From a virus, in the IMG/VR virus record IMGVR_UViG_3300012001_000019, positions 1 through 42,544 of that record: 42,544 nucleotides of DNA, one strand, 5' to 3'. Shown here in pieces: positions 18,629 to 36,077 of the stretch. The notes beneath the pieces were generated by a model. It was not told where the DNA came from and did no database searches. It saw nothing but the letters and a program-made list of their open reading frames with translations. Made by a program: the position numbers and the translations under genes. Within the stretch, counting starts at the first letter, position 1. Each line of letters opens with the position of its first letter.

Positions 18629-18935
18629 GCTTATTCTTCATTCGCTTCTTCGTATTCTTAATACAGAAATCACATAAGGCTATGAGGTTACGAGGGGATG
18701 TATTATCTACGTTACCATCTATATAATGGATATCTGTTATACCTTTATATAAACACATAGTACAAATACCACGATTTACTAATATGCTAGGCAGTAGATA
18801 GTTATCTTTATTATCTCCATGAACAATGATCCTTGCTCTTTCCCTACTTAAGCCATAAAGCCTACCTAGTTCAGCAAAAGAATATCTATCCTCATTGAAT
18901 AACCTACTCATTTGCTTCTTTTCTCGATCAGTCAC
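18609..18935 (-). CDS. HTH-HNH protein, probable homing endonuclease (only minus-strand gene)
   Basis: This 108-residue protein has a GTG start. Residues 10-40 form a sigma-region-4-like helix-turn-helix (RYSFAELGRLYGLSRERARII). The C-terminal part is HNH-like: CTMC, then IHYIDGNVDNTSPRNLIALCDFC with two Cys pairs and the H..D..N pattern. It sits on the opposite strand between scaffold and coat genes with its own promoter, as expected for a selfish insertion. Confidence 0.75.
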   Translation of the reverse strand: MTDREKKQMSRLFNEDRYSFAELGRLYGLSRERARIIVHGDNKDNYLLPSILVNRGICTMCLYKGITDIHYIDGNVDNTSPRNLIALCDFCIKNTKKRMKNKPTQFQF

Positions 18936-19095: not shown

Positions 19096-20205
19096 ATGGC
19101 AACACGAGCAACAACAATAGCACAAGGATTTTCTAACAAACTAATGTTAGAAATGTATGATAGAGATTTAACAGACATTATCGCTAACCGCAATTATCAG
19201 GGAGAAATCAACGCAGTAGGTAGTAAACTAAACATTCTTAACTTCGATAGGCTTTCAGAAAAAACCTATGCAAATTCTGCTCTTTCAGCAGATGACCTCA
19301 CAGAAAACAACGCTACATTAGTTATTGACCAGTACAAATCATTCTATTGGAAAGAAAAAGATCTTGCTAACTGGCTCTCATATATCAAAGATCCACACCC
19401 TACTATCGTTAGCCAGGTTGCTAATGAACGTAACAAGAATAAAGAAACCTTCTTACTTGGCTTCTATGGAGACGTAGCAGCAGGGAATAGAGTTGGTACA
19501 GACTACACGACTGGTACAGTTACAGTAGATGTTACAACAGGAGCAGTAACAGGATCAGGAACTACATTTACTTCAGCTATGGTTGGTAAGGGCTTCAAAG
19601 CAACTGGTCATACTAAGTGGTACAGAGTAAAGACGTATACTGATGCAACTACAATAGTCATTGAAGATGATAAAGATGATGCAACTTCAGCTTACACAGG
19701 AGGAGCTATTGCAGCAGGAGCAAGTTACACAATCGAAGCAGCTACAGTCGTATCAATTACTACTACTAACTTACTCCAATATGTCGCTTCACTTAGACTT
19801 AAGTTAGATCAGGCTGAAAAGTTCAGTCATTCATCTGTACCGGATACTGACCGTGTACTCGTAGTTCCACCAGAGTTTATGAATACAGTAGTTCGAGCAA
19901 CCGGTATCGCTCTTCATGTACCAGAAGTATATTCACAGCTTATTCAAAAGGGATACGTTGGAGACTTGCTAGGCTTCCATGTCTATGTATCTAATAGACT
20001 TACCGGAGATAATACTAACGGCTATCACTGTTTAGCAGTTCAAAAGAACTGGATCACTATGGCAGAAAAAGTAATTGATGCTCGTATGGAAGAAGATATT
20101 ATCGGAGACTTCGGAACGGCCTATAAGGATTTGTTCGTCTATGGGGCTAAAGTAACTGATTCCAGACGCCACTATGCAGCAGAAGGATTCTTTACCTTCG
20201 CCTAA
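19096..20205 (+). CDS. Major capsid protein with inserted beta domain
   Basis: This 369-residue protein follows the scaffold. The body (LMLEMYDRDLTDIIANRNYQG, FYWKEKDLANWLSYI, VLVVPPEFMNTVVRATG, LGFHVYVSNRL, KDLFVYGAKVTD) reads as an HK97-fold coat. Residues about 137-215 are a Thr/Gly-rich insert (VTVDVTTGAVTGSGTTFTSA, then AYTGGAIAAGASYTI). That insert resembles a beta module more usual in tail fibres and is probably displayed on the capsid surface. The gene ends at a terminator and has its own strong promoter. Confidence 0.85.
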   Translation: MATRATTIAQGFSNKLMLEMYDRDLTDIIANRNYQGEINAVGSKLNILNFDRLSEKTYANSALSADDLTENNATLVIDQYKSFYWKEKDLANWLSYIKDPHPTIVSQVANERNKNKETFLLGFYGDVAAGNRVGTDYTTGTVTVDVTTGAVTGSGTTFTSAMVGKGFKATGHTKWYRVKTYTDATTIVIEDDKDDATSAYTGGAIAAGASYTIEAATVVSITTTNLLQYVASLRLKLDQAEKFSHSSVPDTDRVLVVPPEFMNTVVRATGIALHVPEVYSQLIQKGYVGDLLGFHVYVSNRLTGDNTNGYHCLAVQKNWITMAEKVIDARMEEDIIGDFGTAYKDLFVYGAKVTDSRRHYAAEGFFTFA

Positions 20206-20294: not shown

Positions 20295-21032
20295 ATGGCA
20301 TCATTTGAAATCAAATCACAGCTACCAATAGAGACACAGAAAGAGATAGATAGAGTTAATGCTTTACCTAGTGTATCCCGTAATAATTCAGAAGTTGCAT
20401 TTTTAGCAGCACTATCTATCTACGTTAATAATAGAGTACTTCGTTACGATACATTAGGGTATGTTACAGCACAAAATCCCGCACCACTTAATACAACTGA
20501 TCTCATCTTAGAAGCTGAAGGGGATACATTACCTACAAGTTATTCAGGATTTAAACTAGGAGCTTTCTTCTGGTTATCATCTAAGACAGTAGGGCGTAAT
20601 CTCTATATTAATGTAGGTACAACTAGTTCGGCTTTATGGCAGTTAGCTAATACAACCGCCGTATCATCTGTATCACCTTCAGCTTCACAGAGTCCTAGTG
20701 CTTCTGTCAGTCCTTCTGCGTCAGTATCACCAAGTAGTTCATCTTCTGCTTCACAATCACCTTCTGTTAGTATGAGTTTGAGCGTATCGCCTTCAGCTTC
20801 AGCTAGTTCTTCACAAAGTCCTAGTGCTTCTGTCAGTCCTAGTGGTTCTGTTAGTCCTTCTGCGTCAGTCAGTAGTAGTTCTTCGCCTTCACAATCTCCG
20901 TCTGCATCTATTAGTGCCAGTTCGTCACCTTCAAAGAGTCCTAGTGCTTCACAGAGTCCTTCATCATCTGCATCACCAAGTAGTTCTAATTCACCTTCTA
21001 TGTCTCCAAGTCCTTCCTTTCCCTTTGTTTAG
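20295..21032 (+). CDS. Virion protein with Ser-Pro tail (decoration or head-fibre candidate)
   Basis: This 245-residue protein has about 120 residues of compact domain (FEIKSQLPIETQKEIDRVNALP, FKLGAFFWLSSKT, YINVGTTSSALWQLAN). An uninterrupted Ser/Pro/Ala/Val repeat (units [15 protein letters not shown]) then runs to the C-terminus near FPFV. Position directly after the coat gene suggests a capsid-surface protein whose tail projects outward. The tail has no hydrophobic or cross-linking residues and would be an ideal O-glycosylation substrate for the downstream glycosyltransferases. Confidence 0.65.
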   Translation: MASFEIKSQLPIETQKEIDRVNALPSVSRNNSEVAFLAALSIYVNNRVLRYDTLGYVTAQNPAPLNTTDLILEAEGDTLPTSYSGFKLGAFFWLSSKTVGRNLYINVGTTSSALWQLANTTAVSSVSPSASQSPSASVSPSASVSPSSSSSASQSPSVSMSLSVSPSASASSSQSPSASVSPSGSVSPSASVSSSSSPSQSPSASISASSSPSKSPSASQSPSSSASPSSSNSPSMSPSPSFPFV

Positions 21033-21062
21033 TTGACAGATAATAGCCTAGTCTATTAGCAT
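21033..21062 (+). promoter_or_regulatory. Promoter of the glycan island
   Basis: TTGACA (21033-21038), N18 and TAGCAT (21057-21062) end nine bases before ATG 21072. It shares TTGACA.ATAATAG and TTAGCATGTGTAT with the 23716 promoter. Confidence 0.5.
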
Positions 21063-21071
21063 GTGTATAGT

Positions 21072-21992
21072 ATGACCACGATTAAAGGTAAAGTATCTAT
21101 TATTATCCCTGCTAAAAATGAGATCTTTCTTAATCAAACTATTAAAGGTATTTTAGATAATGCTAGAGGAGATATAGAGATCATCGTCAATCTAGACGGT
21201 TACTGGCCTACAGAATTTACCGTTACATCAGGAGAGATTAAAGGAACTACCTATCATCAAGAGATGATTAATGATCCAAGAGTCAACTACATTCATAGAG
21301 GACAGGGTAGAGGCATGCGATCAGGAATAAACGCTACAGCTTCAATAGCAACCGGAGAATACTTACTTAAGTCAGACGCTCATTGTATGTATGATGAAGG
21401 CTTTGATCTTAAACTTAAGGCAGATATGCAGCCTAACTGGATAGTTATACCTAGACGAAAGCGATTAGATGCAGAGAATTGGGCTATCTTAGATGTCGGT
21501 AAGCCAGATGTTGATTACGAATTTCTATCTAGTCCTAGTCATGACGGAGCTAAAGGCCAAGTCTGGAACGAACGAATCAAAGAACGCCTTAATAAACCGG
21601 AGTATGATATAGATGAAGACCTATCTTTTCAAGGATCATGCTGGTTTATGACTAAAGATTACTTCTGGAATCAATTAGAAGGTATGCAGATAGAAGGATA
21701 TGGTGAATTTGTCAGAGAGGCTCAAGAGCTAGGCCTTAAGTGCTGGTTAAGTGGCGGGCAAGTAATGGTTAATAAAAAGACATGGTATGCACATCTTCAT
21801 AAAGGTAAGATTACTGGTCGAATGTACTTTATAGATAAGTTTGGTATGATGGATGGAGAGAAATATTGTGATGACTACTGGTTTAATAACAGGTATCCTA
21901 AAGCAATCCACGATCTAGCTTGGCTTATTGAGAAGTTCAGTCCTGTACCAGGATGGACACCAGAATTAATAGAAAGTATACGAAGCAAATGA
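21072..21992 (+). CDS. Family 2-like glycosyltransferase
   Basis: This 306-residue protein has a GT-A fold start, VSIIIPAKNEIFLNQTI, then EIIVNLDGYWP and a metal-binding type motif in LLKSDAHCMYDEGFD. The later FQGSCWFMTKDYFW and YGEFVREAQELGLKCWLSGG act as the acceptor-side region. It transfers a sugar from a nucleotide donor. A near-identical layout appears in the first half of the 25641 gene. ATG 21072 is preferred to GTG 21063. Confidence 0.8.
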   Translation: MTTIKGKVSIIIPAKNEIFLNQTIKGILDNARGDIEIIVNLDGYWPTEFTVTSGEIKGTTYHQEMINDPRVNYIHRGQGRGMRSGINATASIATGEYLLKSDAHCMYDEGFDLKLKADMQPNWIVIPRRKRLDAENWAILDVGKPDVDYEFLSSPSHDGAKGQVWNERIKERLNKPEYDIDEDLSFQGSCWFMTKDYFWNQLEGMQIEGYGEFVREAQELGLKCWLSGGQVMVNKKTWYAHLHKGKITGRMYFIDKFGMMDGEKYCDDYWFNNRYPKAIHDLAWLIEKFSPVPGWTPELIESIRSK

Positions 21993-22138
21993 GCGACAAA
22001 CATCAAAAGATAACTGTTAAGACCTTACAAGCGTTTCTTAATATCTTTAATACTCAATCTATTAGTAAAGAGACAGTTGATATGATAGAAATGCACCCTA
22101 ACAATGGTACATGGAATATAGTTATTCATTATAAATGA
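21989..22138 (+). CDS. 49-residue protein, unknown function
   Basis: It starts in an ATGA overlap with the glycosyltransferase and ends in an ATGA overlap with the next one (MSDKHQKITVKTLQAFLNIFN..., NNGTWNIVIHYK). The double overlap supports translation. No motif is recognised. Confidence 0.5.
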   Translation: MSDKHQKITVKTLQAFLNIFNTQSISKETVDMIEMHPNNGTWNIVIHYK

Positions 22139-23013
22139 AAGTTTACTTAGAGTTACCGGTAGAAGATAGAGCTTTACAAAGAGTACGAGATGCGTTAGTT
22201 ATGTATAAGCCGGAAGGTTTAGAGATTACTGATAGTCCTAGTGATTCAGATCTAGTTATTCTCCATATAACCGGTAGGCATGATGGTATAAAAGCACAAA
22301 TAGATCTTCTTAATAAGTACAATAAACCCTATGCTATGATTCAGTACGTTTTGCGAAGTACTAAGAATCCTAGTACTTCCGATTGGTTAGATATGTGGCA
22401 AAATGCGAGGCTAGTATGGAGTTATTACTATCTACCCGAACTATGCTTTGAGGATAAAGTACATGAGCAATTTCCTTTCTACTATGCCCCATTAGGAGTT
22501 GATACAAGCGTTTTCTATGATAGAAAGAGTAGTAAGGGTCATAAAGCAGCCGTTATAGCGACAAATAGTAGAGGATTACTTACTGAGTCAGCGAAAGAGT
22601 GTATACAGGCTGGTACATCACTAGATAGAAAAGTATTCTTTCTAGGTGAAGAGGTAAATATCCCCGGAGTCTTTTGTAAAACAAACATAACTGATGATGA
22701 GTTAGCCTATTACTATTCTATTAGTGAATTTGTCTCCGGCTTAAGACGCATAGAAGGCTTTGAACTACCGGCAGCAGAAGGGTTAATGTGTGGAGCAAGG
22801 CCGATTATGTTCAATAAGCCCCATTATAGAGCCTGGTTTGAAAATATGGCTGTCTATATAGAGGAAGGCAATAGAGAGCAAGTACAAACAAGCCTAGAGA
22901 AAGTATTTAAAAAGGGTTCTCGGGAAGTAACAGAGGCAGAACTACAAAGAGCTAAACAGATCTTTAACTGGGAGACTATCATCAAAGGTTTTTGGGATAG
23001 ACTTTTAATATAA
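22135..23013 (+). CDS. GT-B-type glycosyltransferase
   Basis: This 292-residue protein has an N-terminal half with LVILHITGRHDGI, MIQYVLRST and APLGVDTSVFY, the last typical of GT4-like linkers. The C-terminal half has KVFFLGEEV, VSGLRRIEGFELPAAEGLMCGARPIM, carrying the E-x7-E nucleotide-sugar-binding pattern, and ends FNWETIIKGFWDRLL. It is shorter than typical GT4 enzymes (about 350-400). Presumably it extends a glycan begun by its neighbours. Confidence 0.8.
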   Translation: MKVYLELPVEDRALQRVRDALVMYKPEGLEITDSPSDSDLVILHITGRHDGIKAQIDLLNKYNKPYAMIQYVLRSTKNPSTSDWLDMWQNARLVWSYYYLPELCFEDKVHEQFPFYYAPLGVDTSVFYDRKSSKGHKAAVIATNSRGLLTESAKECIQAGTSLDRKVFFLGEEVNIPGVFCKTNITDDELAYYYSISEFVSGLRRIEGFELPAAEGLMCGARPIMFNKPHYRAWFENMAVYIEEGNREQVQTSLEKVFKKGSREVTEAELQRAKQIFNWETIIKGFWDRLLI

Positions 23014-23027
23014 TCATCTGCTATAAC
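22998..23027 (+). promoter_or_regulatory. Weak leaderless-geometry promoter
   Basis: TAGACT, N18, TATAAC (23022-23027) and N6 lead to ATG 23034. The -10 is good and the -35 poor. The spacing equals the stronger sites. Confidence 0.35.
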
Positions 23028-23033
23028 ATACTT

Positions 23034-23726
23034 ATGAACCCAACACTAGAATATTTACAGAAGTCATTTAGAGTCAACTTAAAAGATCAGTTAGTTGAAA
23101 TCCCTAATACAGATAGAGAGTTTCTAGCTAGTATCTTCAAAGACTTAGGCTTTACTAAAGGAGTAGAGATAGGAGTAGAAAGAGGTTTGTATTCAGAAGT
23201 ACTCTGTAGAAATAATCCCGGAGTCCACTTATTTAGTGTCGATGCCTGGACTGCGTATAAAGAATATAGAGATCATGTAACTCAAACTAAACTAGATGGT
23301 ATCTATGAGGAAGCAAAAGCAAGACTTAAACCATATAATGCAGAACTGATTAAAGGATTCTCTATGGATGTTGTAAAGTCTTTCCCTGATAACTACTTTG
23401 ATTTCGTCTACATTGACGGCAATCATGAGTATCAGCACGTTGTGGATGATATCACTCAATGGACTAAGAAGGTACGCCCTGGGGGGATTGTAGCGGGTCA
23501 CGACTATGTAAGACGAAAGACTACACACCAGAAGCAAGAGTACTTAATGCATGTAATCCCGGCTATTCATGGTTACATGGATGCATACCAAGTTAAACCA
23601 CTCTTTATACTAGGTAGTAAAGCTAAAATAGAAGGTGAAAGACGCGATAGCCCTCGATCATGGTTCTTTGTTAAGCCGGAAGATAGACGAGTAGTACCCG
23701 GATACGAAACTAATCTTGACAAATAA
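23034..23726 (+). CDS. SAM-dependent methyltransferase (Methyltransf_24-like)
   Basis: This 230-residue protein has motif I KGVEIGVERGLYSEVL (about 42-57), then LFSVDAWTAYKEY and FDFVYIDGNHEYQHVVDDI, followed by VRPGGIVAGHDYV. The pattern matches the class I family whose members often methylate sugars or act with glycosyltransferases. Its place within a glycosyltransferase cluster supports methylation of a sugar. There is no SD sequence. Confidence 0.8.
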   Translation: MNPTLEYLQKSFRVNLKDQLVEIPNTDREFLASIFKDLGFTKGVEIGVERGLYSEVLCRNNPGVHLFSVDAWTAYKEYRDHVTQTKLDGIYEEAKARLKPYNAELIKGFSMDVVKSFPDNYFDFVYIDGNHEYQHVVDDITQWTKKVRPGGIVAGHDYVRRKTTHQKQEYLMHVIPAIHGYMDAYQVKPLFILGSKAKIEGERRDSPRSWFFVKPEDRRVVPGYETNLDK

Positions 23727-23745
23727 TAGTTAGCATGTGTATGAT
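23716..23745 (+). promoter_or_regulatory. Leaderless-geometry promoter of RHH gene
   Basis: TTGACA (23716-23721), N18, TATGAT (23740-23745) and N6 lead to ATG 23752. The fit decides for ATG 23752 over GTG 23737, which would lie inside the promoter. Confidence 0.65.
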
Positions 23746-23751
23746 ATACAC

Positions 23752-23937
23752 ATGTCTTCAGATCTAGTACGCAAGAACTTCTATATAACCCGAACTGATA
23801 ATGTCTTCTTAAGTAACTTCGATGATCGTACTGCTTCAGAGCATATACGAATAGCTATTAATGAATACGTCACTAAGAAGCGTAAAGAGTTAGGTAAATC
23901 TTCATATTCTCCATCAAGAAAGGTAGCACATGCCTAG
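23752..23937 (+). CDS. Ribbon-helix-helix-like DNA-binding protein
   Basis: In this 61-residue protein, RKNFYITRTDNVFLSNF is a beta strand plus first helix and ASEHIRIAINEYVTKKRKEL the second helix, as in CopG/Arc-type regulators. The tail is basic. It may regulate the island or its own promoter. It overlaps the Tad2-like gene by 8 bases. Confidence 0.65.
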   Translation: MSSDLVRKNFYITRTDNVFLSNFDDRTASEHIRIAINEYVTKKRKELGKSSYSPSRKVAHA

Positions 23938-24154
23938 TCCTATTCCTGAGAAACTAAGTCAAGCTGGTATGTCTTTTGATGAAGCCTTAAGCTTTGTCTT
24001 AGAAGGTAGAAAGATTACTAGGCTTTCCTGGCAAGATCCGGAGACCTACGGCCTACTTAATGGTGAGACCTTAAGTATCATGATTCAAGGTAAACTCAAT
24101 AATTGGATAGTTGTTGTAGGAGACATAGAAGCTAATGATTGGGTTATCGTATGA
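23930..24154 (+). CDS. DUF2829 protein, Tad2-like anti-Thoeris candidate
   Basis: In this 74-residue protein, MSFDEALSFVLEGRKITRLSW matches the opening of DUF2829 proteins (MtFgeAL..lk.GkkV.R.gW). The end, IEANDWVIV, matches the closing .a.DW...  pattern. Tad2, the best known member, sequesters the gcADPR signal of Thoeris immunity. It overlaps both neighbours (RHH upstream, dehydrogenase by ATGA). It is shorter than typical members, so ligand binding is not assured. Confidence 0.65.
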   Translation: MPSPIPEKLSQAGMSFDEALSFVLEGRKITRLSWQDPETYGLLNGETLSIMIQGKLNNWIVVVGDIEANDWVIV

Positions 24155-25023
24155 CTAAAGTAGCAATTATCGGTAATGGGTGGGTGGGTAAAGCGATGCA
24201 GTCACTTTTTCCCGATGCTATAGTTTATTTAAGGGATGAAGAAAAAGTATATCTTCATAATCTTAATCCGGACAATACTAATCTTTATACTTCATTGAAG
24301 GATGCAGTAAATACATGTGAATTTGCCTTTATTTGTGTTCCTACTCCTAATTACATAAGTGAAAATACTCCTGTTCTGAGAGGTGATTATCCTAGTCTTA
24401 AAGGAGAAGGTAAATTAGATACTTCAGCAGTTGAAGAGTGTATCAAGTGGTGTGAATGTCCTATTATCGTTATTCGATCTACTGTTAATCCTGGAGACTG
24501 TGATAGGTGGAGTAGTAAATATGAGAAAGAGATAGTATTTCAACCTGAATACTTAGGGGAGTCTCCTCAACACCCATTACTAGATGTAACTCAAACTAAC
24601 TTCATGATACTTGGTGGCTGGACACATGCTACTAGGAAGCTCATAGATCTTTATGCCACTGTTTATAATGCGAATACTAAGATAAGGCAAGTTTCAGCTA
24701 GGACAGCAGAGATCATTAAACTAACTGAGAATAGAGCTATAGCCTTTAAAGTAGCTCAATGTCAAGAACTCTATGATGTATTAGAAGCAGATCATAGAAA
24801 AGAAGATTATTATGAAATAGTCCAAGCAGTCTATGGTGACGATCCTAGATTTAACTTATGGTGGACTCTTGTATATCCTGATAAAAGAGGGTTTAATAGT
24901 AAGTGTATACCAAAAGATGTCTATGCTTGGTGTGCTTGGGCTGAATCATTAGAATATGAGCCTAAAATAACAAGAGCCTTATTAGAAAAGAATAAGGATT
25001 GGATAGAAGGTGATAACAAATGA
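24151..25023 (+). CDS. Nucleotide-sugar dehydrogenase, short UDP-glucose dehydrogenase-like
   Basis: This 290-residue protein starts at ATG 24151 (ATGA overlap). Rossmann GNGWVG (8-13), FICVPTPNY, IVIRSTVNPGD and FQPEYLGESPQHPLLD follow the UDP-glucose/GDP-mannose dehydrogenase order. GFNSKCIPKDVYAW holds the catalytic Cys (Cys252). Known enzymes oxidise the sugar C6 to a uronate. Full-length members run about 390-430 residues; this one ends after the central domain and lacks the C-terminal UDP-binding domain. It may supply or modify a sugar for the glycosyltransferases. Confidence 0.75.
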   Translation: MTKVAIIGNGWVGKAMQSLFPDAIVYLRDEEKVYLHNLNPDNTNLYTSLKDAVNTCEFAFICVPTPNYISENTPVLRGDYPSLKGEGKLDTSAVEECIKWCECPIIVIRSTVNPGDCDRWSSKYEKEIVFQPEYLGESPQHPLLDVTQTNFMILGGWTHATRKLIDLYATVYNANTKIRQVSARTAEIIKLTENRAIAFKVAQCQELYDVLEADHRKEDYYEIVQAVYGDDPRFNLWWTLVYPDKRGFNSKCIPKDVYAWCAWAESLEYEPKITRALLEKNKDWIEGDNK

Positions 25024-25196
25024 CAAGTGTATTAATTGAGTTTTTATTAGGGATCTATTTTATAGGTGTGTCTATTGCCGTTGCAAGACAACTAACTACG
25101 CCGGTGACGTATAGTAAATCAGTAGATGTATTTAAACTAGTCTTAGGAGTATTACTAGTTCTTCTAGCAGTACTACAAGGAGTAAGGTTTATCTAA
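25020..25196 (+). CDS. 58-residue two-helix membrane protein
   Basis: It starts in an ATGA overlap and ends in a TAATG overlap with the HNH-AP2 gene. Hydrophobic helices lie near LIEFLLGIYFIGVSIAVA and VFKLVLGVLLVLLAVLQGV. Function unknown. Confidence 0.5.
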   Translation: MTSVLIEFLLGIYFIGVSIAVARQLTTPVTYSKSVDVFKLVLGVLLVLLAVLQGVRFI

Positions 25197-25651
25197 TGAC
25201 TATTAAGCTTACTCAAGGATATGAAGCTATCGTTGATGATGAAGATTATAAATATCTTAGTCAATGGAAATGGCATTATAATGCAGGGTACGCAATTAGA
25301 GGAATCTATGTAGGAACTGGTAGGAAAAATAGGAAAATGGTTAAAGTTCTTATGCATAGAGTTATTAATAAAACTCCTAACGGATATGACACAGATCATA
25401 TCAATAGAAATAAATTAGATAATCGTAAGCTTAACCTAAGGTCAGTCGTTAGGAGTTTTAACATTATTAATTCAAAGTTAAGGAAAGATAATACATATGG
25501 AGTAAGGGGAGTATTTTGGAATAAAAGCAATAATAATTGGCGTTCAGCAATATCTATAAATAATAAGAAGATAAGTTTGGGATCATTTAAGACAATAGAA
25601 GAAGCAATAGAGGCCAGAAAGAAAGCAGAGGTTATTTATCATGCAATATGA
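25196..25651 (+). CDS. HNH-AP2 homing endonuclease
   Basis: This 151-residue protein opens with LTQGYEAIVDDEDYKYLSQWKWHY, the usual start of this family. It continues with LMHRVI, YDTDHINRNKLDNRKLNLRSV (HNH core) and a C-terminal AP2-like domain (TYGVRGVFWNKSNNNWRSAI, then SLGSFKTIEEAIEARKKAE). Such genes copy themselves into allelic sites. It interrupts the dehydrogenase-to-glycosyltransferase run. Confidence 0.85.
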   Translation: MTIKLTQGYEAIVDDEDYKYLSQWKWHYNAGYAIRGIYVGTGRKNRKMVKVLMHRVINKTPNGYDTDHINRNKLDNRKLNLRSVVRSFNIINSKLRKDNTYGVRGVFWNKSNNNWRSAISINNKKISLGSFKTIEEAIEARKKAEVIYHAI

Positions 25652-27266
25652 TTTATCTATATTAATACCCGCAAGAAATGAAATGTTCCTATCTCGAACA
25701 GTAGAGGACATTCTTAAAAATAGACGTGGAAATACAGAAGTAATAGTTGGCTTAGATGGTCAATGGAGCAACCCCCCTATAGGTGATTTTGATGATGTCA
25801 CCATATTCTACTCTCCGGTATCACTAGGACAAAGAGAAATGACAAACCAACTGTGTAGACTTTCTAAGTCTAAGTATGTTATGAAGCTGGATAGTCATTG
25901 TGCTTTAGATGAAGGCTTTGATGTCAAGATGATGGACAAGATGAAAGATAACTATACTCTAGTTCCTCTAATGCGGAATCTCCATGCTTTTGACTGGGTA
26001 TGTCCGGAAGGCCATAGGAGATATCAAGGGCCTAGTGGTGTCTGTAAAGAGTGTGGTAAAGAGACAACAAAGGATATCTTATGGATAGGTAAGGATTCTC
26101 CTAAATCTACAGCCTTTCGTTTTGATAAGACGCTTCACTTTCAATACTGGAATGACTTTAAGAAGAGACCGGAAGGCCAAGGAGAACTTACAGATACACT
26201 AACTATACAGGGATCATGTTTTATGTTGACCAGGGATAAGTACTGGGAGTTAAATATTTGTGATCCGGAGTTTGGGAGTTGGGGTCAGCAAGGTGTAGAA
26301 GTAGCTCTAAAGACATGGTTAAGTGGTGGAAGAGTAGTTTGTAATCAAACAACGTGGTACGCTCACATGTTTAGAACACAAGGCGGAGACTTCGGCTTTC
26401 CTTACCCGATATCCGGTAGACAGACAGATCATGCTAGGGAGTTTTCACGTGAACTCTTTATTAAGGACAAATGGTCTCAAGCTATTATGACCTTTAATGA
26501 CGTATTACAAAAATTCTATCCTGTACCTGAATGGCATGATGATACTCCGGCAGTAGTAAAGCCTAAAAAAGAAGTTGTCTACTATACGCATGGAGTAGGG
26601 GATAACCAACTTCTAGAAGCTTGCAGAAGACAACTAGCTAAAGGTATGAAGACTAAACATATTGTGTCTATCTCTACTAATTCTCTAGATTTTGGTAAGA
26701 ATATTGTCTTCCCTCGTCTAGAAGTAGGTGGATTTTTAGATATGTTTCAACGAATCCTCTTAGGTTTAGAAGCTACAACTGCTGATATCATTTTCTTTTG
26801 CGAACATGATGTACTTTATCACCCAAGTCATTTCGACTTTATCCCTCCTAGTAAGGATATGTACTACTACAATACAAATGTATGGAGAGTTAGGGCAAGT
26901 GATGGACACTCTTTATATACTGATAACTTACAACAATTATCCGGACTTTGTGCCTATAGAGAGACACTTCTTACTCATTATAGAAAAAGACTCAAAATGA
27001 TCTATGAGAAGGGCTTTAGTAATGCACAAGGCTTTGAGCCCGGTACACATGGAAGAGAAGAACGAGTTGATGATCTTAAAGCAGAGAGTTACTTTTCAGC
27101 ATTTCCTAACCTAGATATTAGACATGAGACAAATGCTACTGCTTCACGCTGGACAAAAGAAGAGTTTAGGAATAAACGATATACTGAAGGCTGGACTGAA
27201 AAGAAAATTAGTGAGATACCCGGCTGGAATACTACAGATTTAGCCTCATTACTTGCCAACATATAG
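25641..27266 (+). CDS. Two-domain glycosyltransferase
   Basis: This 541-residue protein has a first domain (about 1-300) that is GT2-like: LSILIPARNEMFLSRTVEDI, EVIVGLDGQW, YVMKLDSHCALDEGFD, TIQGSCFMLTRDKYW. It contains a zinc-ribbon-like insert (WVCPEGHRRYQG...GVCKECGK). The second domain (about 315-541) looks like another GT-A-type unit: VVYYTHGVGDNQLLEACRRQL, IIFFCEHDVLYHPSHF, ending RWTKEEFRNKRYTEGW. It could add two different sugars in sequence. The start overlaps the HNH-AP2 gene by 11 bases. Confidence 0.8.
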   Translation: MQYDLSILIPARNEMFLSRTVEDILKNRRGNTEVIVGLDGQWSNPPIGDFDDVTIFYSPVSLGQREMTNQLCRLSKSKYVMKLDSHCALDEGFDVKMMDKMKDNYTLVPLMRNLHAFDWVCPEGHRRYQGPSGVCKECGKETTKDILWIGKDSPKSTAFRFDKTLHFQYWNDFKKRPEGQGELTDTLTIQGSCFMLTRDKYWELNICDPEFGSWGQQGVEVALKTWLSGGRVVCNQTTWYAHMFRTQGGDFGFPYPISGRQTDHAREFSRELFIKDKWSQAIMTFNDVLQKFYPVPEWHDDTPAVVKPKKEVVYYTHGVGDNQLLEACRRQLAKGMKTKHIVSISTNSLDFGKNIVFPRLEVGGFLDMFQRILLGLEATTADIIFFCEHDVLYHPSHFDFIPPSKDMYYYNTNVWRVRASDGHSLYTDNLQQLSGLCAYRETLLTHYRKRLKMIYEKGFSNAQGFEPGTHGREERVDDLKAESYFSAFPNLDIRHETNATASRWTKEEFRNKRYTEGWTEKKISEIPGWNTTDLASLLANI

Positions 27267-27282
27267 ACTAGTATACTAAGCT
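27253..27282 (+). promoter_or_regulatory. Leaderless-geometry promoter of LamG fibre gene
   Basis: TTGCCA (27253-27258), N18, TAAGCT (27277-27282) and N6 lead to ATG 27289. A stronger-looking TATACT at 27272 has poor spacing to any -35. Confidence 0.4.
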
Positions 27283-27288
27283 CTAGGT

Positions 27289-28482
27289 ATGGCATTAGAA
27301 CTAGGTTCAACACATTTAATTAGCGATGCTAACTTACAAGCTTATTATAAGTTAGAAGATGTAAATGATAGCACTGCTAATGCTCGTAATTTAACTAATA
27401 ATGGTACAACTCCTTTTAATGCTGCTAAGTTCAATAATGGAGCAGATTTTGGTTCAGGTAATACAACTAAATTCTTAACTACCACAAATAAACTAGGAAT
27501 AGATGGCGGGGCAATATCTATTTCATTCTGGATTAAAATACCAACAGAAATAACTACATCTCTTTGGGGTTTGATAGCTCACAATAGTAATGTAACTCAA
27601 ACTAGAACAGATATTGATTATCAATATAACGGAGGTACGATTGGGCTTTTAATAGGAAGAACTCGACTTGGAGTAGCAAATGACAGAACAATTTACAATG
27701 GTTCTTTATCTGATGGAACTTTTCATCATATAGTTTATTCTTATGACGGATCTAACTATAAAGTTTATATAGACAATGTAGATAAAGGTGGGGGAGCGTC
27801 AACAGGTAATGGGAATATCAACGGAACTGATGGATTTACTATAGGAGAATCTACAGATGGAACTATAGTTACTGCTAGTGCAATTATTGATGATGTAGGA
27901 GTATTTAATAGAGCATTAACAGCTAGTGATGTAAGTCTTTTATTCTTAGGATATTCCGCCTCTATCAGTCCTTCTAGTTCAGCATCACCTTCCGCCTCTA
28001 TCAGTCCTTCTAGTTCAGCATCACCTTCCGCCTCTATCAGTCCTTCTAGTTCAGTAAGTCCTTCACCTAGTGCCGGTTATACAGACTATTCACGAGGTCA
28101 TTATGCAGCTCTTCCGACAAATGATAATGATTTACTTACAGTTTATTCGGCTCAAGACATTATAGATGTAGGAACAAGTAATAATGTACGAGTAGGGCAA
28201 ACTGGTGCATTAGAATATATGGTTCATGAGTATAAAAACTTTGTAGGTACAGCTTCATTTGCTACGCTTCATTGGGAAGGTCAGACAGATTTAGCCCCAT
28301 CATCATCAACTGTTTACCTACAGATCTATAATAGAAATACGACTACATGGGATAATGTAGCTAGTGATAATACTTCTTCACCCGGCACAGATTTTGTTAT
28401 AGAAGGAACGCTAACAGATTTAACTAACTATAAAGATGCCTCAAATGTGATTGCAAGCCGAGTATATCAGCAAGCAATCTAA
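27289..28482 (+). CDS. LamG-type fibre protein with Ser-Pro linker
   Basis: In this 397-residue protein, residues 1-220 form a concanavalin A-like LamG module: LQAYYKLEDVNDSTANARNL, ISISFWIKIPT, FHHIVYSYDGSNYKVYIDN, DDVGVFNRALTASDVSLLF. A Ser-Pro linker of about 40 residues follows (tandem [12 protein letters not shown] units), then a C-terminal beta domain ending ASRVYQQAI. LamG modules bind glycans or proteins, so this is a candidate receptor-binding or virion-surface protein. Confidence 0.75.
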   Translation: MALELGSTHLISDANLQAYYKLEDVNDSTANARNLTNNGTTPFNAAKFNNGADFGSGNTTKFLTTTNKLGIDGGAISISFWIKIPTEITTSLWGLIAHNSNVTQTRTDIDYQYNGGTIGLLIGRTRLGVANDRTIYNGSLSDGTFHHIVYSYDGSNYKVYIDNVDKGGGASTGNGNINGTDGFTIGESTDGTIVTASAIIDDVGVFNRALTASDVSLLFLGYSASISPSSSASPSASISPSSSASPSASISPSSSVSPSPSAGYTDYSRGHYAALPTNDNDLLTVYSAQDIIDVGTSNNVRVGQTGALEYMVHEYKNFVGTASFATLHWEGQTDLAPSSSTVYLQIYNRNTTTWDNVASDNTSSPGTDFVIEGTLTDLTNYKDASNVIASRVYQQAI

Positions 28483-28485
28483 TAT

Positions 28486-28602
28486 ATGGCAGCAGCAGTA
28501 ACCCTCTTAGGCTCAATCCTCAACACTACATCTGGAACTCTCTGGCTTTCCTGCATGAGTTCCAGATGTAGTGTTGAGGATTGGAGACAGGTGGTAATTT
28601 AA
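28486..28602 (+). CDS. 38-codon frame spanning a perfect inverted repeat
   Basis: [17 protein letters not shown]... has an N-terminus styled like the two neighbouring fibre genes ([20 protein letters not shown]), and an in-frame stop lies one base before the next ATG. The 3' two-thirds is the reverse complement of the middle. It may be the remnant of a fibre gene start disrupted by an inverted duplication. Translation is uncertain. Confidence 0.3.
28514..28583 (+). repeat. Perfect 26-bp inverted repeat between fibre genes
   Basis: Bases 28514-28539 (starting CAATCCTCAACAC) are the exact reverse complement of 28558-28583, separated by 18 bases. No T run follows, so it is not an intrinsic terminator. 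Confidence 0.85.
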
Positions 28603-28603
28603 T

Positions 28604-31600
28604 ATGGCAATATTACTAGATGCAAAAACAGATGGATTAGCTAGGTCTGGTGCAGGACCGTTTACTATCAGTCACACAGTTGGTACGGGAAATGATAGAG
28701 CTATTTTTGTCATTATAGATGGAAGACAGAGTAACAGAACCGCTACGGCTGTTACTTATAATGGAGTTGCTTTAACAAAAGCTAAAAATGTTAATGATGG
28801 TGTTCAAATGTACGGGGAGATATGGTATTTAATAAACCCTGCAAGTGGAGCCAATACTGTTTCTGTTACTAGTTCTGGAACAGGTGGATGGCATTTTTAT
28901 ATAGCAAGTTTTACAGGAGTTAGTCAAGCAACTATATTGGATCAAGTTGGTGGAAGTACAGGAACAACAGCAAGTATAAGTGATGCTGTTGTTCCAACAG
29001 TTGATGGAGAATTAATCCTTTCTGGTCTTGCCCATGAGCAAACTAACGTATCTACACCTGGTCAAACAAGTTTATTTGCTATAGATGATGGTACCTGGAA
29101 TAGTGGTGCTCAATATTTTATCCAAGGGACTCATGCTTCAAAAGCGATGACTTGGGCAGCTGCTGGTTCTGATACTTATGCTCATGTAGTAGCTTCTTTT
29201 TTCCCAGATACTCCACCTACTGTTGCCCTCAATACTCCTACAGATACCGCAACAGGAGTTTCAACTACTCCTGATTTAGTCTTTACAGGTACGGATGCAG
29301 ATGCAGATACGATTGAATACAACGTCAGCTTGTCAAATGGAGTAGATTTTTTTGGTCAGGTTTTGGCAGCAAATCAATATGTAGGTAATGCCGCCAATCC
29401 TGGACAGGCAATGTCATTCACACCTTCAGCTTCAATTACGCTTGGGAGTGCGTTATTTAATATTGCTAAAGCTAGTTCTCCCACTGGCAACATAGTATTG
29501 AAAGTATATACCCATTCAGGGACTTACGGGACATCTAGTATACCAACTGGAGCAGCCCTGGCTACATCAGATGCTGTCAGTAGTTCAGGATTATCTACCT
29601 CACCTTCTTGGGTGAATTTTATATTTTCTGGAGGAAATCAAATATCGCTTACTGCTGGGACTCATTATTGTCTTAGCCTTGAAATGTCATCTGAAACCTA
29701 CCCTAATGGCGTGAATTTATCTTGGGGTTCCGGTCACCCAGGCAATCAATCGATACTTGATAATACAGGTACCTGGACAGTGGGGAGTGGGCTCGATTTG
29801 GATTTTGGAGTTTTTGATAACACCATATCGTTTCCAGTAGTCCTCTCCAAACTCTCCGTTACTCCTGATGCTACCTTTACTGATGTAACTAACGGAGCAG
29901 ATACCCACCCTTTTGCTTCAGGCGACCAGATTAAATATACGGTTCAAATAGGCGATATTCTAGCTGGTTCAACTACTTATTATTGGAGAGTAGCAGGAAC
30001 AGACCCTACAGGATCTAATACCTACGGGGCGTGGTCAACAACCAGAAGTTTTACAACAGTAAGTGGCAGTTCTCCTTCAGCATCTATAAGTCCATCAGCT
30101 AGTATCTCAGCTTCAGTTAGTCCGTCAGCCTCCGTCAGTCCGTCTAGTTCAAATTCACCTTCAGTAAGTCCTTCAGCTAGTGTCAGTCCATCTAGTAGTA
30201 TTTCAGCCTCAGTCAGTCCTAGTGCTTCTGTCAGTCCATCTAGTTCAGTAAGTGCCTCTACTTCACCAAGTAGTAGTATAAGTGCTTCCATATCTCCTTC
30301 TTCTTCTGTTAGTCCTAGTTCATCTATTTCACCATCAAGTTCTATCTCTGCGTCAGTATCTCCATCAAGTTCTATATCCGCATCTGTTTCACCTTCTGCT
30401 TCTATCAGTCCTTCTGCTTCTGTTAGTTCGTCAATTTCACCATCAAGTAGTATATCTGCTTCAGTCTCACCATCTGCTTCTGTTAGTCCGTCTGCTTCTG
30501 TTAGTCCGTCATCATCTGTATCCGCATCAGTCTCACCTAGTAGTTCTATTTCAGCTTCTATCTCACCTTCTGCAAGTATCAGTCCTAGTGCTTCAGTATC
30601 TCCGAGTAGTTCTATAAGTGCATCAGTCTCACCTTCAGCATCAGTCTCACCTAGTAGTAGTATCTCTGCATCTACTTCACCGTCTAGTTCTATAAGTGCA
30701 TCAGTCTCACCTTCTAGTTCAATTAGTCCATCAGCTTCTGTTAGCCCGTCATCAAGTATTTCTGCCTCTGTTTCACCTTCAAGTAGTATTTCAGCTTCAG
30801 TCAGTCCGTCAGCTAGTAAAAGTCCTTCCGCATCAATCAGTCCTTCCAGTAGTATTTCAGCATCTGTATCACCTAGTAGTTCTATTTCAGCTAGTAAGTC
30901 TCCATCAGCATCAGTCTCACCTAGTAGTTCTATTTCGGCTAGTATCAGCCCATCTAGTAGTTCTTCAGCTAGTAAGTCTCCATCAGCTTCAATTAGTCCA
31001 TCTGCTTCTATCTCACCTAGTAGTAGTATTTCCGCTTCAGTCAGTCCTAGTAGTAGTATTTCGGCTTCAGTCTCACCTAGTAGTTCTATTTCACCTTCAA
31101 TTAGTCCTTCTGCATCTGTCTCACCATCTAGTTCAATTAGTCCATCAAGTAGTATATCTTCTTCAGTCTCACCTTCTGCATCTGTCTCACCATCTAGTTC
31201 AATTAGTCCATCAAATGCTATCTATACTCTTCAGACTGATCTATGGTCAATCCTTGCATCTAGTCCGAGTGCTTCGGTAAGTGCATCAGTCTCACCTTCA
31301 GCAAGTCAATCTCCTTCGGCTTCGGTCTCTCCAAGTAGTAGTATCTCAGCGTCTGTTAGTCCTTCTAGTTCAGTAAGTGCGTCCGTCTCTCCTTCTGCGT
31401 CAGTCAGCCCTAGTGCATCGGTAAGTCCATCAGCATCTATCTCAGCCTCAGTCTCACCATCGAGTAGTTCAAGTGCATCGGTAAGTCCATCAGCATCTAA
31501 GAGTCCATCTGCGTCAGTTTCACCTTCTAGTAGTATCTCAGCTTCTATCTCACCTTCGTCTTCAGTCTCAGCATCAGTATCACCATCTGCTTCAGTTAGT

Positions 31601-34387
31601 CCATCTGCGTCAGTTTCACCTTCTAGTAGTATCTCAGCTTCCGTATCACCAAGTAGTAGTTCCTCATCGTCTGTCAGTCCTAGTGCTTCTGTATCACCAT
31701 CTGCTTCAGTTAGTCCTAGTAGTAGCATAAGTGCGTCAATTTCACCTTCATCTAGTAGTTCGGCTTCGGTAAGTCCATCAGCCTCAGTCAGTCCTTCGGC
31801 TTCTACATCTCCTTCGAGTTCAGTAAGTGCCTCAGTCAGTCCTTCTAGTTCAATAAGTTCATCAGTCTCACCTTCAGCCTCAGTCAGTCCTTCTGCGTCA
31901 GTGTCACCAAGTAGTTCAATCTCAGCGTCTGTTAGTCCTTCTAGTTCAATCTCAGCTTCTGTCAGTCCGTCAGCCTCAGTCAGTCCTTCAGCTTCTGTCT
32001 CACCCTCTAGTTCTATCAGTGCAAGTATATCTCCTTCTAGTAGTATATCTGCATCTGTTTCACCTTCGGCTTCAGTAAGTCCATCTGCTTCAGTCTCACC
32101 TAGTAGTTCTATTTCCGCTTCAGTTAGTCCTAGTAGTAGTATTTCCGCTTCTATTAGTCCATCAGCGAGTATCAGTCCTAGTGCTTCTATCAGTCCATCG
32201 GCATCGGTATCATCTTCTGTTTCACCTAGTAGTTCTCTATCAGCTTCCGTCAGTCCTTCAGCTTCTACATCTCCTTCAAGTTCTATATCTGCTTCAGTCT
32301 CACCATCAAGCTCAGTAAGTGCATCTGTAAGTCCATCAGCTTCTGTCAGTCCATCGGCATCTATTTCACCCTCAAGTAGTATTTCAGCCTCAGTCAGTCC
32401 GTCAAGTAGTATTTCAGCCTCAGTCAGTCCATCGGCATCTATTTCACCCTCAAGTAGTATTTCAGCCTCAGTCAGTCCGTCTAGTTCAAATTCACCTTCA
32501 GTAAGTCCTTCAGCTTCTATTAGTCCATCTGCTTCAGTATCACCATCAGCGAGTATCAGTCCTAGTAGTTCTCTATCAGCTAGTCCAAGTCCAGCGGAGA
32601 GTACCTTCGGGCAAGTAACTAGAGATGACGTAGGACATACATTAGGAACTAATGCTTATGCAGCTAAATATAGTCTAGCAAGTCAAGGACTTGTAACTGC
32701 TTTATCTGTTTATATTATAAATTCTAGTGTTTCAAATCATTTAATACAGCTTGCAATTTATAATGATAATGCCGGATCAGTAGGTACAAAAGTATATTCT
32801 ACAGATTCTTTATTATTACTAGCTAGTAACGCAAGAGACGGGTGGCAGACATTTTACCCTAATAATTTAAATTTACTTATTGGTGATTATTGGTTAGCTA
32901 TAGAAGGAGATTCTAGTTCAATTACCTATCCTATTTTAACTGCTTCCACAGTACCGGTTTATAAGTGGACTGCTAGTTTAGGTACATGGGTTGATAATCC
33001 GACTACTACACTTGATTTAGGTTCTGGGGGAATATCTATCTATGCAACGTATACAATAGTTAGTTCTCCATCTGCTAGTATCAGTCCGAGTGCTAGTATT
33101 AGTCCAAGTAGTTCTGTCTCACCATCTAGTAGTAGCTCTGCTTCTGTATCTCCGTCTAGTAGTATTTCAGCCTCAGTCAGTCCGTCAGCGTCAGTTTCTC
33201 CAAGTAGTTCCTCATCAGCTTCTGTCAGTCCATCTGCTTCTATTTCACCTAGTAGTTCTATTTCGGCTTCAGTTAGTCCGAGTAGTAGTATTTCAGCCTC
33301 AGTCTCACCATCAGCCTCAGTCAGTCCATCTGCTTCTATTTCACCTAGTAGTTCTATTTCGGCTTCAGTTAGTCCGAGTAGTTCTGTCTCAGCAAGTATC
33401 AGTCCTTCAGCTTCGGTATCACCTTCATCTTCGGTTAGCCCTTCTAGTTCAGTAAGTGCCTCAGTTTCACCATCAAGTTCTCTATCAGCTTCTATTAGTC
33501 CTTCAGCTTCGGTATCACCTTCATCTTCTATCAGTCCTTCAGCTTCTCTATCGGCTTCTATTAGTCCAAGTAGTTCTGTCTCAGCAAGTATCAGTCCTTC
33601 AGCTTCTATTAGTCCATCTGCTTCAGTATCACCATCAAGCTCTGTAAGTTCATCAGTTTCACCATCAAGTTCGATTTCTTCTTCCGTATCTCCATCGGCA
33701 AGTAATTCACCATCATCATCTATTTCAGCCTCAGTTTCACCATCAAGTTCCGTAAGTCCATCTTCGTCTGCTTCTTCATCACAAAGTCCATCAGCTTCGG
33801 TCTCACCATCTAGTAGTATCTCCGCATCTGTTTCTCCTTCAAGTTCACAGTCACCAAGTAGTTCTATTTCTGCAAGTACTAGTCCATCTAGTTCAGTCTC
33901 ACCTTCTGCTTCAGTATCAGCCAGTATAAGTCCTTCTAGCAGTTCAAGTGCTAGTGTGTCACCATCAAGCTCTATCTCTGCGTCAGTGTCTCCTTCTAGT
34001 AGTAGTTCTTTATCGCAAAGTCCTAGCAGTTCGATCAGTAGTAGTACTAGTCCATCTAGTTCAGTCTCACCATCTTCATCTATTTCAGCCTCAGTTTCAC
34101 CATCAAGCTCTATAAGTCCATCTATTCCTAGCTACACGTTAGAGACAGATCAATTTACTGTACTTCTTCCTATTGTCTATCTGGAAAAATATGTAGTTGA
34201 AAGCACAGTTTATGAAGAAAAGTACACATTAGGAAATAACACGTATGTTAAAAAGTATGAAAAGGAAAACACGATGTTTGCTAATACCTATGAAGAAAAG
34301 GCTACTACCTTTGAAGGGAAATATAATGATTTTCCTACTACTTTTGTTAAACAGTACCCGGATATTAATGCTAATCGGAGTGGTTAG
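28604..34387 (+). CDS. Giant Ser-Pro-repeat fibre protein
   Basis: This is a 1,927-residue protein. Residues 1-200 are a beta-sandwich ([36 protein letters not shown]). Residues about 203-485 are an Fn3-like domain ([17 protein letters not shown] ... [18 protein letters not shown]) split by a jelly-roll-like insert ([21 protein letters not shown]...). About 488-867, 886-1329 and 1487-1840 are Ser-Pro arrays built from [12 protein letters not shown] and SASV units. About 1331-1487 is a second copy of the insert-type domain. The C-terminus (about 1845-1927) repeats EKY/EEKY. All six Ser codons are used, so the repeat is kept at protein level. Probably a long, flexible, glycan-bearing tail or head fibre. 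Confidence 0.75.
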
Positions 34388-34388
34388 G

Positions 34389-34418
34389 TTGTCAATATAT
34401 AGGTTCATCTGTTACAAA
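34389..34418 (+). promoter_or_regulatory. Leaderless-geometry promoter
   Basis: TTGTCA (34389-34394), N18, TACAAA (34413-34418) and N6 lead to ATG 34425. No SD sequence is present. Confidence 0.45.
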
Positions 34419-34424
34419 TAGAGT

Positions 34425-36077
34425 ATGCCAGTCTATACAACGTATAAGTTTTCAGGTGGTTTATCTACCTTTGAAGATAAAGGTCAGCCCGGATCATTTA
34501 AATTCGGTACAAACCTAGATATCAGAAAACAAGTAGATAGTCTTTCCTGTAATCAGGCTCTTGTAGATGTAGGAAATACTGTACAATCACCATCAGCTTC
34601 AGTCTCACCATCATCAAGTGTATCTCCATCTGCTTCTAATTCACCTTCGCCATCATTATCTATATCACCATCAGCTTCACAAAGTCCATCACCGGTTGCT
34701 ACATCTGCCTCTGCATCTGTATCACCATCAGCTAGTAAGAGTCCTTCAGCTTCGGTCTCTATGTCTGCATCAGTGAGTCCTTCTTATTCAGTATCTTCAT
34801 CACCATCGCCATCGGCAGGATTAAAGACTGTTTTTGCTGACTTAATTAAATGGTTTGTTAAAGCTTCAGACGGGTTTACTTATGGGTTTGGTAATGCAGG
34901 AAGAATCTATAGAAGAGATACAGACGGTTACTGGAAGCAGGTTTATAATCAAGGTGAAGAAATTAAGGGTGCAGAAGAAAAGCCATCAGCTACAGGCAAA
35001 ACCTATCTCATCTGGGCAACGAATACGAATCTTCATAGAAAAGAGTTACCGGGTCGATCTGACTGGAATGATGTTGATGCAAGCGGTACAGTTCAAGGTG
35101 ATTCATGGCCTAAAACTAATTTAGATAGTGCAGACTATCATACGATGAAGCAGGTTGCAGGGGATGTCATGATAGCTAATAAGAATAAACTAGCTATGGC
35201 AGCCTATGATGACTCTTATACAAATGAAGCATTAGATCTAATACCTGGTAATCTAGTCAAGACAATTATAGAAAGACATGGAAGGGCAGTAACCGGAACG
35301 TATCGAACCGGAGATCCTAACAATGGGATTAATGCAGCGATAGATGCTGAAGTATCACTAATTCAGGTAGGAAATGATGGTCAGTTAGTCTATGCCGATT
35401 TTATTTCAACAGTACCGGCTAGACGCTTTCCGGGTGGAGGAAGGGTAAACCCCGGAGGTGTAACTAATAAGATAGATCAGGTCATGCTTTTTGATTGGGA
35501 TACGACAGCTCTTTCCTGGATTAATAAGCAAGTGATAGGTAATCTAGCTTTGTTTGCCGTTTATGGTGGAGATAGTGGTAAGAATGGTATCTATTCGTAT
35601 GGGAGAAAAGACAAGGATAAACCTTTTACGCTTAATTTAGATTTTGCTATAGAAGCTGATGAGCTAGGAGCTTTAACAGTTGTTAATGGAAAAGAGATAG
35701 TCAGTTATAAATCAGGAAGTAGTTTCGGAGTCAAAGAACGTGATGATACAACAAAAGCTATTGCTACGTACGAAGGACTTGATTTCTATTCTCCGCCACG
35801 AAAAGCAGAACGACCAACTAGCTTTACTATGGCTGAAGTCTATATGAAGCCTCTACCTACAGGATGTTCACTAGAGTTTTGGTACAAAATGGATAAGACA
35901 AGTGCTTTTACTAGAGCCTATACAGCAGATGACCAAACAAGCTATAGCGTAGCAGGTGAAATGAAGGCAACCTTTAAGTTAGGTCTCAGTGGAGATATCT
36001 ATGAACCTAGACTTGTCCTCAATCCCTATGGTAATACTACTCCGGAAGTCTATAGAGCTAAGACATTCTTTAACTAA
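34425..36077 (+). CDS. Tail/neck structural protein with inserted Ser-Pro linker
   Basis: In this 550-residue protein, the N-terminal motif (FSGGLSTFEDKGQPGSFKFG, LSCNQALVDVG) is followed by a Ser-Pro linker (about residues 54-131). The main body of repeated beta blades follows (FTYGFGNAGRIYRRDTDGYW, TYLIWATNTNLHRKEL, LVYADFISTVPA, LALFAVYGGDSGKNGIYSYG). The body resembles a beta-propeller as in tail-hub proteins. The linker interrupts the N-terminal motif and body, as if pasted in. It is probably exposed on the virion. Confidence 0.65.
   Translation: MPVYTTYKFSGGLSTFEDKGQPGSFKFGTNLDIRKQVDSLSCNQALVDVGNTVQSPSASVSPSSSVSPSASNSPSPSLSISPSASQSPSPVATSASASVSPSASKSPSASVSMSASVSPSYSVSSSPSPSAGLKTVFADLIKWFVKASDGFTYGFGNAGRIYRRDTDGYWKQVYNQGEEIKGAEEKPSATGKTYLIWATNTNLHRKELPGRSDWNDVDASGTVQGDSWPKTNLDSADYHTMKQVAGDVMIANKNKLAMAAYDDSYTNEALDLIPGNLVKTIIERHGRAVTGTYRTGDPNNGINAAIDAEVSLIQVGNDGQLVYADFISTVPARRFPGGGRVNPGGVTNKIDQVMLFDWDTTALSWINKQVIGNLALFAVYGGDSGKNGIYSYGRKDKDKPFTLNLDFAIEADELGALTVVNGKEIVSYKSGSSFGVKERDDTTKAIATYEGLDFYSPPRKAERPTSFTMAEVYMKPLPTGCSLEFWYKMDKTSAFTRAYTADDQTSYSVAGEMKATFKLGLSGDIYEPRLVLNPYGNTTPEVYRAKTFFN

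Follow-up and report, generated by a model that had tools for sequence, protein, structure and literature searches.

The serine-rich repeat (SRR) adhesins of Gram-positive bacteria contain domains in which Ser alternates with Ala, Val or Thr, and they are O-glycosylated by glycosyltransferases encoded beside them (PMC6973325). Among phages, virion glycosylation has been reported for the mycobacteriophages Che8, Corndog and Myrna (Freeman et al. 2023, via PMC12363180 and PMC12619734); in the available portions of these sources, phage-encoded glycosyltransferases (GT enzymes) act on capsid and tail-tube proteins, with sites at the C-termini of those proteins, and there is no mention of Ser-alternating arrays or of a pair of enzymes like those of CAZy family GT27. 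In a survey of GT-A enzymes, the change of the DxD motif to DxH was confined to families GT27 and GT60, which are said to share the O-glycosylation of Ser/Thr in polypeptides (PMC7185993). Here we describe a locus in the IMG/VR virus record IMGVR_UViG_3300012001_000019 (positions 1 to 42,544; this whole stretch of 42,544 nucleotides is referred to as the window), in which four genes for proteins with Ser arrays lie in a phage head–tail gene run together with an island of five enzymes, two of them GT27-like. We consider it likely that the phage encodes O-glycosylation of the Ser arrays on its virion proteins, with the GT27-like enzymes as initiators. Because arrays and GT genes come and go together across related phages, the phage probably puts a sugar coat on its own virion. 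The genes that bear on this proposal are as follows, and each is referred to below by its first nucleotide.

19096–20205, + strand: major capsid protein (MCP; PHROG_267 major head protein, 2.8e-15), the anchor gene of the co-occurrence test
20295–21032, + strand: array protein 1, recognized by the array metric and without a family match; a ~106-amino-acid N-terminal domain followed by a C-terminal array (nt 20613–21029)
21063–21992, + strand: small single-domain GT27-like glycosyltransferase (labelled GTs; PF00535 Glycos_transf_2, 1.5e-12)
22135–23013, + strand: probable GT-B glycosyltransferase (PHROG_4356/2170 glycosyltransferase, weak, 9e-6; no Pfam or NCBIfam match)
23034–23726, + strand: methyltransferase (Methyltransf_24, PF13578, 1.9e-18), a candidate sugar O-methyltransferase that recurs in related modules
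24139–25023, + strand: nucleotide-sugar (UDP-glucose type) dehydrogenase (UDPG_MGDP_dh PF00984/PF03721, 1e-9; PHROG_9148, 4.7e-27; TIGR03026, 1.6e-24, below its cut-off; CIPKD motif present)
25641–27266, + strand: two-domain glycosyltransferase (labelled GTL; Glycos_transf_2, 7.7e-10) with a GT27-like N-terminal domain (residues ~1–300) and a GT-like C-terminal domain
27289–28482, + strand: array protein 2, a LamG/ConA-like lectin domain (PF13385, 7.2e-16), an array (nt 27907–28128) and a C-terminal domain
28604–34387, + strand: array protein 3 (1927 amino acids), recognized by the array metric; a globular N-terminal part, a spacer and two array blocks (nt 30005–32653, with a short non-array insert inside, and nt 32990–34186)
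34425–36077, + strand: array protein 4, an array insert (nt 34536–34853) in a conserved protein that has an array-free orthologue in a GT-free relative (L044)

The four array ORFs (open reading frames) have the coordinates given in the initial annotation of the window. Arrays were delimited by a strict criterion, namely a segment of 40 residues in which one phase was at least 80% Ser, the other phase was at most 40% Ser and at least three residues were Pro. The numbers of array residues in 20295, 27289, 28604 and 34425 were 130, 59, 1237 and 94, respectively, versus means of 2.5, 0, 42 and 1.5 when the residues of the same Ser-rich parts were shuffled. Since the shuffles yield far fewer array residues, the strict alternation of Ser goes far beyond composition, and chance composition was ruled out as the source of the arrays by the shuffles together with the Ser phase. 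Ser stands at every second residue, which is more than mere richness in Ser and Pro. In the window the arrays are 52% Ser, 12% Pro, 11% Ala, 9% Val and 6% Ile, and the proportions of their Ser codons (539 TCN and 298 AGY) are close to those in the remainder of the genome. Among 174 loci that have an array of 80 residues or more, the median Ser fraction was 0.90 in phase and 0.07 out of phase, the partner residues varied (P, A, V, L, I, E, G, T, Q, K and R), and in GC-rich phages the alternation was kept with TCG/AGC codons. Because the phase persists while partner residues and codons vary, the comparison points to regularly spaced Ser as what is kept in the arrays, as a glycosylation substrate would need.

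The initial annotation had proposed comparing related phages for co-occurrence of arrays and GT genes, and the two were found together from each of three anchors. The capsid anchor, which is for the most part independent of arrays and GT genes, drew on 62 relatives, comprising unique window-type capsids with at least 6 kb downstream plus a second capsid type (L011/L012) that is unmatched by the window type. Among the 31 window-type capsids, 21 loci had both arrays and GT genes, 10 had neither and none was discordant; the 31 of the second type divided into 7 with both, 24 with neither and none discordant. For both lineages together the counts are therefore 28 both, 34 neither and 0 discordant, with the qualification that some loci were fetched via the GT search, which may inflate the first class and cannot create array-only or neither loci. 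Only four joint changes of arrays and GT genes (three plus one) were placed on the two capsid trees, so most of the 62 relatives are not independent. With 25641-type genes as the anchor, arrays were present in 45/47 loci having at least 5 kb on each side; 97/97 array ORFs lay on the GT strand at a median distance of 132 bp, and in 25 loci an array gene was the very next gene. From the side of the arrays, GT27-like genes were present in 27 of 31 records that bear arrays and are 30 kb or longer, a non-random sample chosen from the first 119 stretches that matched the array DNA pattern. Three MCP types accompany the module: phrog_267, the L011 type, which has no match to phrog_267, and phrog_29, the last in a locus (L251) where a large GT gene is directly followed by that of a 1769-residue array protein.

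The GT-free relative L044 has the capsid, the portal and a 34425-type protein in common with the window and lacks both the GT genes and the arrays. Its 34425 orthologue aligns over the full length with only the array segment missing, and the array insert is present in two aligned GT-bearing phages. The slot after the MCP gene, which holds an array gene in most GT-bearing relatives, is occupied in L044 by a conventional tail-fibre protein (phrog_5668). From their position in the head–tail run and from the array-free orthologue and relatives, we infer that the array proteins are virion components. A looser metric applied in six-frame scans produced false arrays in the off-frames of GC-rich sequences (L192), and for this reason the final counts rely on the alternating-Ser metric. 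The discordance at three further loci (L292, L157 and L170) was only apparent and arose from the 6-kb limit or the choice of ORF strand, and arrays are present in them; a Thr-rich stretch of 41 residues in L315 was left out of the arrays in the final table.

Four of the enzymes that had been recognized among the arrays in the initial annotation (21063, 25641, 23034 and 24139) are backed by Pfam or PHROG matches, and for the GT-B candidate 22135 the match is the weak PHROG one; the GT27 likeness of both GT2 enzymes (21063 and 25641) had been overlooked. A single-sequence phmmer search with 25641 returned mostly polypeptide N-acetylgalactosaminyltransferases (ppGalNAc-Ts; best ppGalNAc-T9, 1.4e-6), a profile built from 68 relatives matched ppGalNAc-T1 at 3.5e-12, and a profile of 51 relatives of 21063 matched ppGalNAc-T4 at 4e-11 over nearly its full length. 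When AlphaFold2 models of the two proteins (predicted local distance difference test scores of 95 for 21063 and 93 for 25641) were compared with the PDB using Foldseek, GalNAc-Ts made up all of the 50 best matches for 21063; of the 50 best for 25641 they made up 48, and chondroitin polymerase accounted for the remaining two. In both GT-A enzymes the DxH metal motif is retained, as is the C-terminal metal His: D84, H86, W214 and H242 are invariant in 68/68 rows of the 25641-type alignment, and D105, E219, E222 and H244 in 51/51 rows of the 21063-type alignment, with H107 in 49/51. In the position of the catalytic loop W-G-G-E-N, the invariant E219 of the 21063 type aligns with the Glu, and there is no Trp. 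Judged by these profiles and models, 21063 and the N-terminal half of 25641 resemble the catalytic domains of the GT27 polypeptide GalNAc-transferases, which initiate mucin glycosylation in animals, sharing with them the GT-A catalytic fold and the DxH motif with the C-terminal metal His, and matching the W-G...E...GG segment in part, at an identity of ~15–20%. Neither enzyme is represented in PHROGs; in BFVD, one viral protein (A0A516LS96) comes close in fold (E 9.7e-21).

The likeness to SRR adhesin islands lies in the long arrays of Ser alternating with Ala, Val and other residues and in the several GT genes beside the substrate gene. The phage arrays differ in being Pro-rich and in being carried in phage head–tail gene runs, and the likely initiator is a GT27-like GT-A enzyme, not GtfA/GtfB. 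No NCBIfam or Pfam match to GtfA/GtfB was obtained for the five island enzymes, no accessory Sec component (SecA2/Y2) was recognized among the window proteins scanned (part of its ORFs), and no LPXTG motif was present at the C-termini of the array proteins; strict membership of the SRR system was rejected. The analogy with SRR adhesins drawn in the initial annotation was thus apt as regards the alternation of Ser, common to both, and did not extend to the initiating enzymes.

In the proposed pathway, one or both of the GT27-like transferases (21063 and the N-terminal domain of 25641) would attach the first sugar to array Ser, and the C-terminal domain of 25641 and the GT-B enzyme 22135 would extend the glycan. 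A uronic-type donor would come from the dehydrogenase 24139, and the methyltransferase 23034 may add a cap to the glycan. We infer array Ser as the acceptor, and likewise this order of the steps. Since the array genes stand alongside those for capsid and tail, mucin-like stretches, extended and dense in glycans, would be expected on the virion, both on a capsid-associated protein and on proteins of the tail/fibre, where they may serve in masking, stiffening, mimicry or adhesion.

Certain observations weigh against glycosylation of the arrays by these enzymes, and some of them favor one of two alternatives. A phylogenetic sign test was not significant on its own (p 0.25, three pairs), since arrays and GT genes changed jointly in only four independent instances. 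In the catalytic loop of the 25641 type, W214-G215 is kept and Gln takes the position of the Glu in 60/68 sequences; no Pfam match to a ricin-type lectin domain was found, the C-terminus of 25641 being a second GT-like domain. Because of these two differences from GT27, the donor and acceptor may differ from those of that family, and fold similarity leaves the substrate of the GT27-like enzymes unfixed. The GT enzymes, dehydrogenase and methyltransferase might instead modify the host surface, serving phage exclusion or episymbiont attachment, with the arrays as unmodified spacers of the same late cassette. GT2 enzymes commonly act on host polymers, Patescibacteria phages have been reported with surface-sugar auxiliary genes (PMC12911398), and two loci with a 25641-type gene, L160 and L165, have no arrays, although they may be fragments. 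We nevertheless regard this alternative as unlikely, as the enzymes are polypeptide-transferase-like with a DxH motif and not of the membrane GtrABC type, the island lies inside the head–tail run adjoining the array genes, and arrays and GT genes are jointly present or absent.

A second alternative is that the arrays are flexible, unmodified low-complexity linkers generated by repeat slippage, and that the GT association reflects hitch-hiking in a fibre cassette. This would suit the wide variation in array length and the array-bearing records with long arrays and no GT2 gene at all (G017 and G027, records of 34–37 kb that may be fragments); two further array-bearing records, G003 and G019, which may also be fragments, have other GT2 genes only. 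Slippage is an improbable account of a Ser phase that is kept while partners (P, A, V, I, L, E, G, R, K and Q) and codons vary, or of associations of 45/47 and 27/31 with three MCP types. The long arrays of G017 and G027 (L437/L438 and L439/L440) may mean that host GT enzymes act on them or that arrays can stay unmodified. Glycosylation of phage DNA bases (hypermodification), of which phage GT enzymes are capable according to Pyle et al. 2024 as cited in PMC12619734, was rejected as hardly credible here, given that the GT27-like enzymes match polypeptide transferases best, in fold as in sequence, the island is in the virion gene run, and no base-hypermodification enzyme was recognized among the window proteins scanned (part of its ORFs).

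Glycosylation of the Ser arrays by the phage, the reading we prefer, would extend a known phenomenon: virion glycosylation is established, and the combination of arrays with a GT27-like cassette was not found in the literature searched. That search, which mostly did not reach subscription journals, found no relevant phage or bacterial GT27, no mucin-like phage proteins and no array-plus-GT27-like cassette. None of 50,697 GenBank phage records contained a relative of 25641, 21063 or the window MCP, and the module therefore appears to belong to an unexplored group of phages. Through co-inheritance, seen in a large number of uncultured phages that have at least three MCP types among them, a set of phage enzymes is tied to the protein that is likely to be its substrate, and through this link virion glycosylation becomes predictable from sequence. 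If GT27-like enzymes of phages are confirmed as polypeptide transferases, they would have a bearing on how mucin-type glycosylation originated; the pair of Ser array and GT is small enough for reconstitution in E. coli.

As to hosts, L251 was the only match in the GTDB collection. Genomes of the phylum of its bin are mostly 0.5–1.2 Mb in size and 56/59 are without ribosomal protein L30; small genomes and the absence of this protein are features of candidate phyla radiation (CPR)/Patescibacteria. The large GT, or its C-terminal domain with the small GT, was present in 6/380 genomes of that phylum. One contig of a small-genome CPR-like bacterium (L469, G131:C14:36000-47446) encodes the GT27-like pair, a small hypothetical protein and a Ser-array protein, and it also carries ksgA, pcrA and a LysM/M23 peptidase, so that the module there looks like a cellular gene set or prophage remnant on an apparent chromosome. 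The GT island had been described as private to the phage, a view that this contig qualifies, because the module is then not strictly confined to phages. We tentatively suggest, as a possibility less probable than our reading of the window itself, that bacterial viruses, probably including some of episymbiotic CPR bacteria, have a transferable cassette for mucin-type O-glycosylation, in which GT27-like polypeptide transferases glycosylate SRR-like Ser arrays in the virion proteins and so provide a mucin-like particle coat; the cassette would then represent a prokaryotic/viral branch of GT27-type protein O-glycosylation. In another element (L470, G318:C6:9000-23485) the array/GT module occurs with genes of heptose-activation type (HddA-, GmhA- and HddC-like, matches below cut-offs). 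The gene content suggests that the added sugar differs between elements and may be heptose at L470.

The window is a tailed-phage contig in which PHROGs identify TerS (13508) and TerL (14166) in addition to the MCP; the gene at 15397 has no family match and is portal-like, recurring next to TerL in relatives. Residues 137–217 of the MCP form an inner segment like tail-fibre family phrog_2712, possibly a surface insertion domain. From the MCP gene, the + strand order is 20295, 21063, 22135, 23034, 24139, 25196, 25641, 27289, 28604 and 34425, and 25196, which the initial annotation had also overlooked, lies within the GT island and overlaps the start of 25641 by 11 bp.

25196–25651, + strand: HNH/AP2 homing-endonuclease-like ORF (PF00847, 2.9e-6, and PF13392, 5e-4, both below cut-off), probably a mobile insertion

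Upstream of the MCP gene, at the same site, opposite-strand ORFs with a helix-turn-helix-like start were observed in the window (18609–18935, − strand) and in L292 (8075–8599, − strand), and they possibly represent a conserved antisense gene within a late region that otherwise uses a single strand. The ORF of L292 also has HNH-like cysteines.

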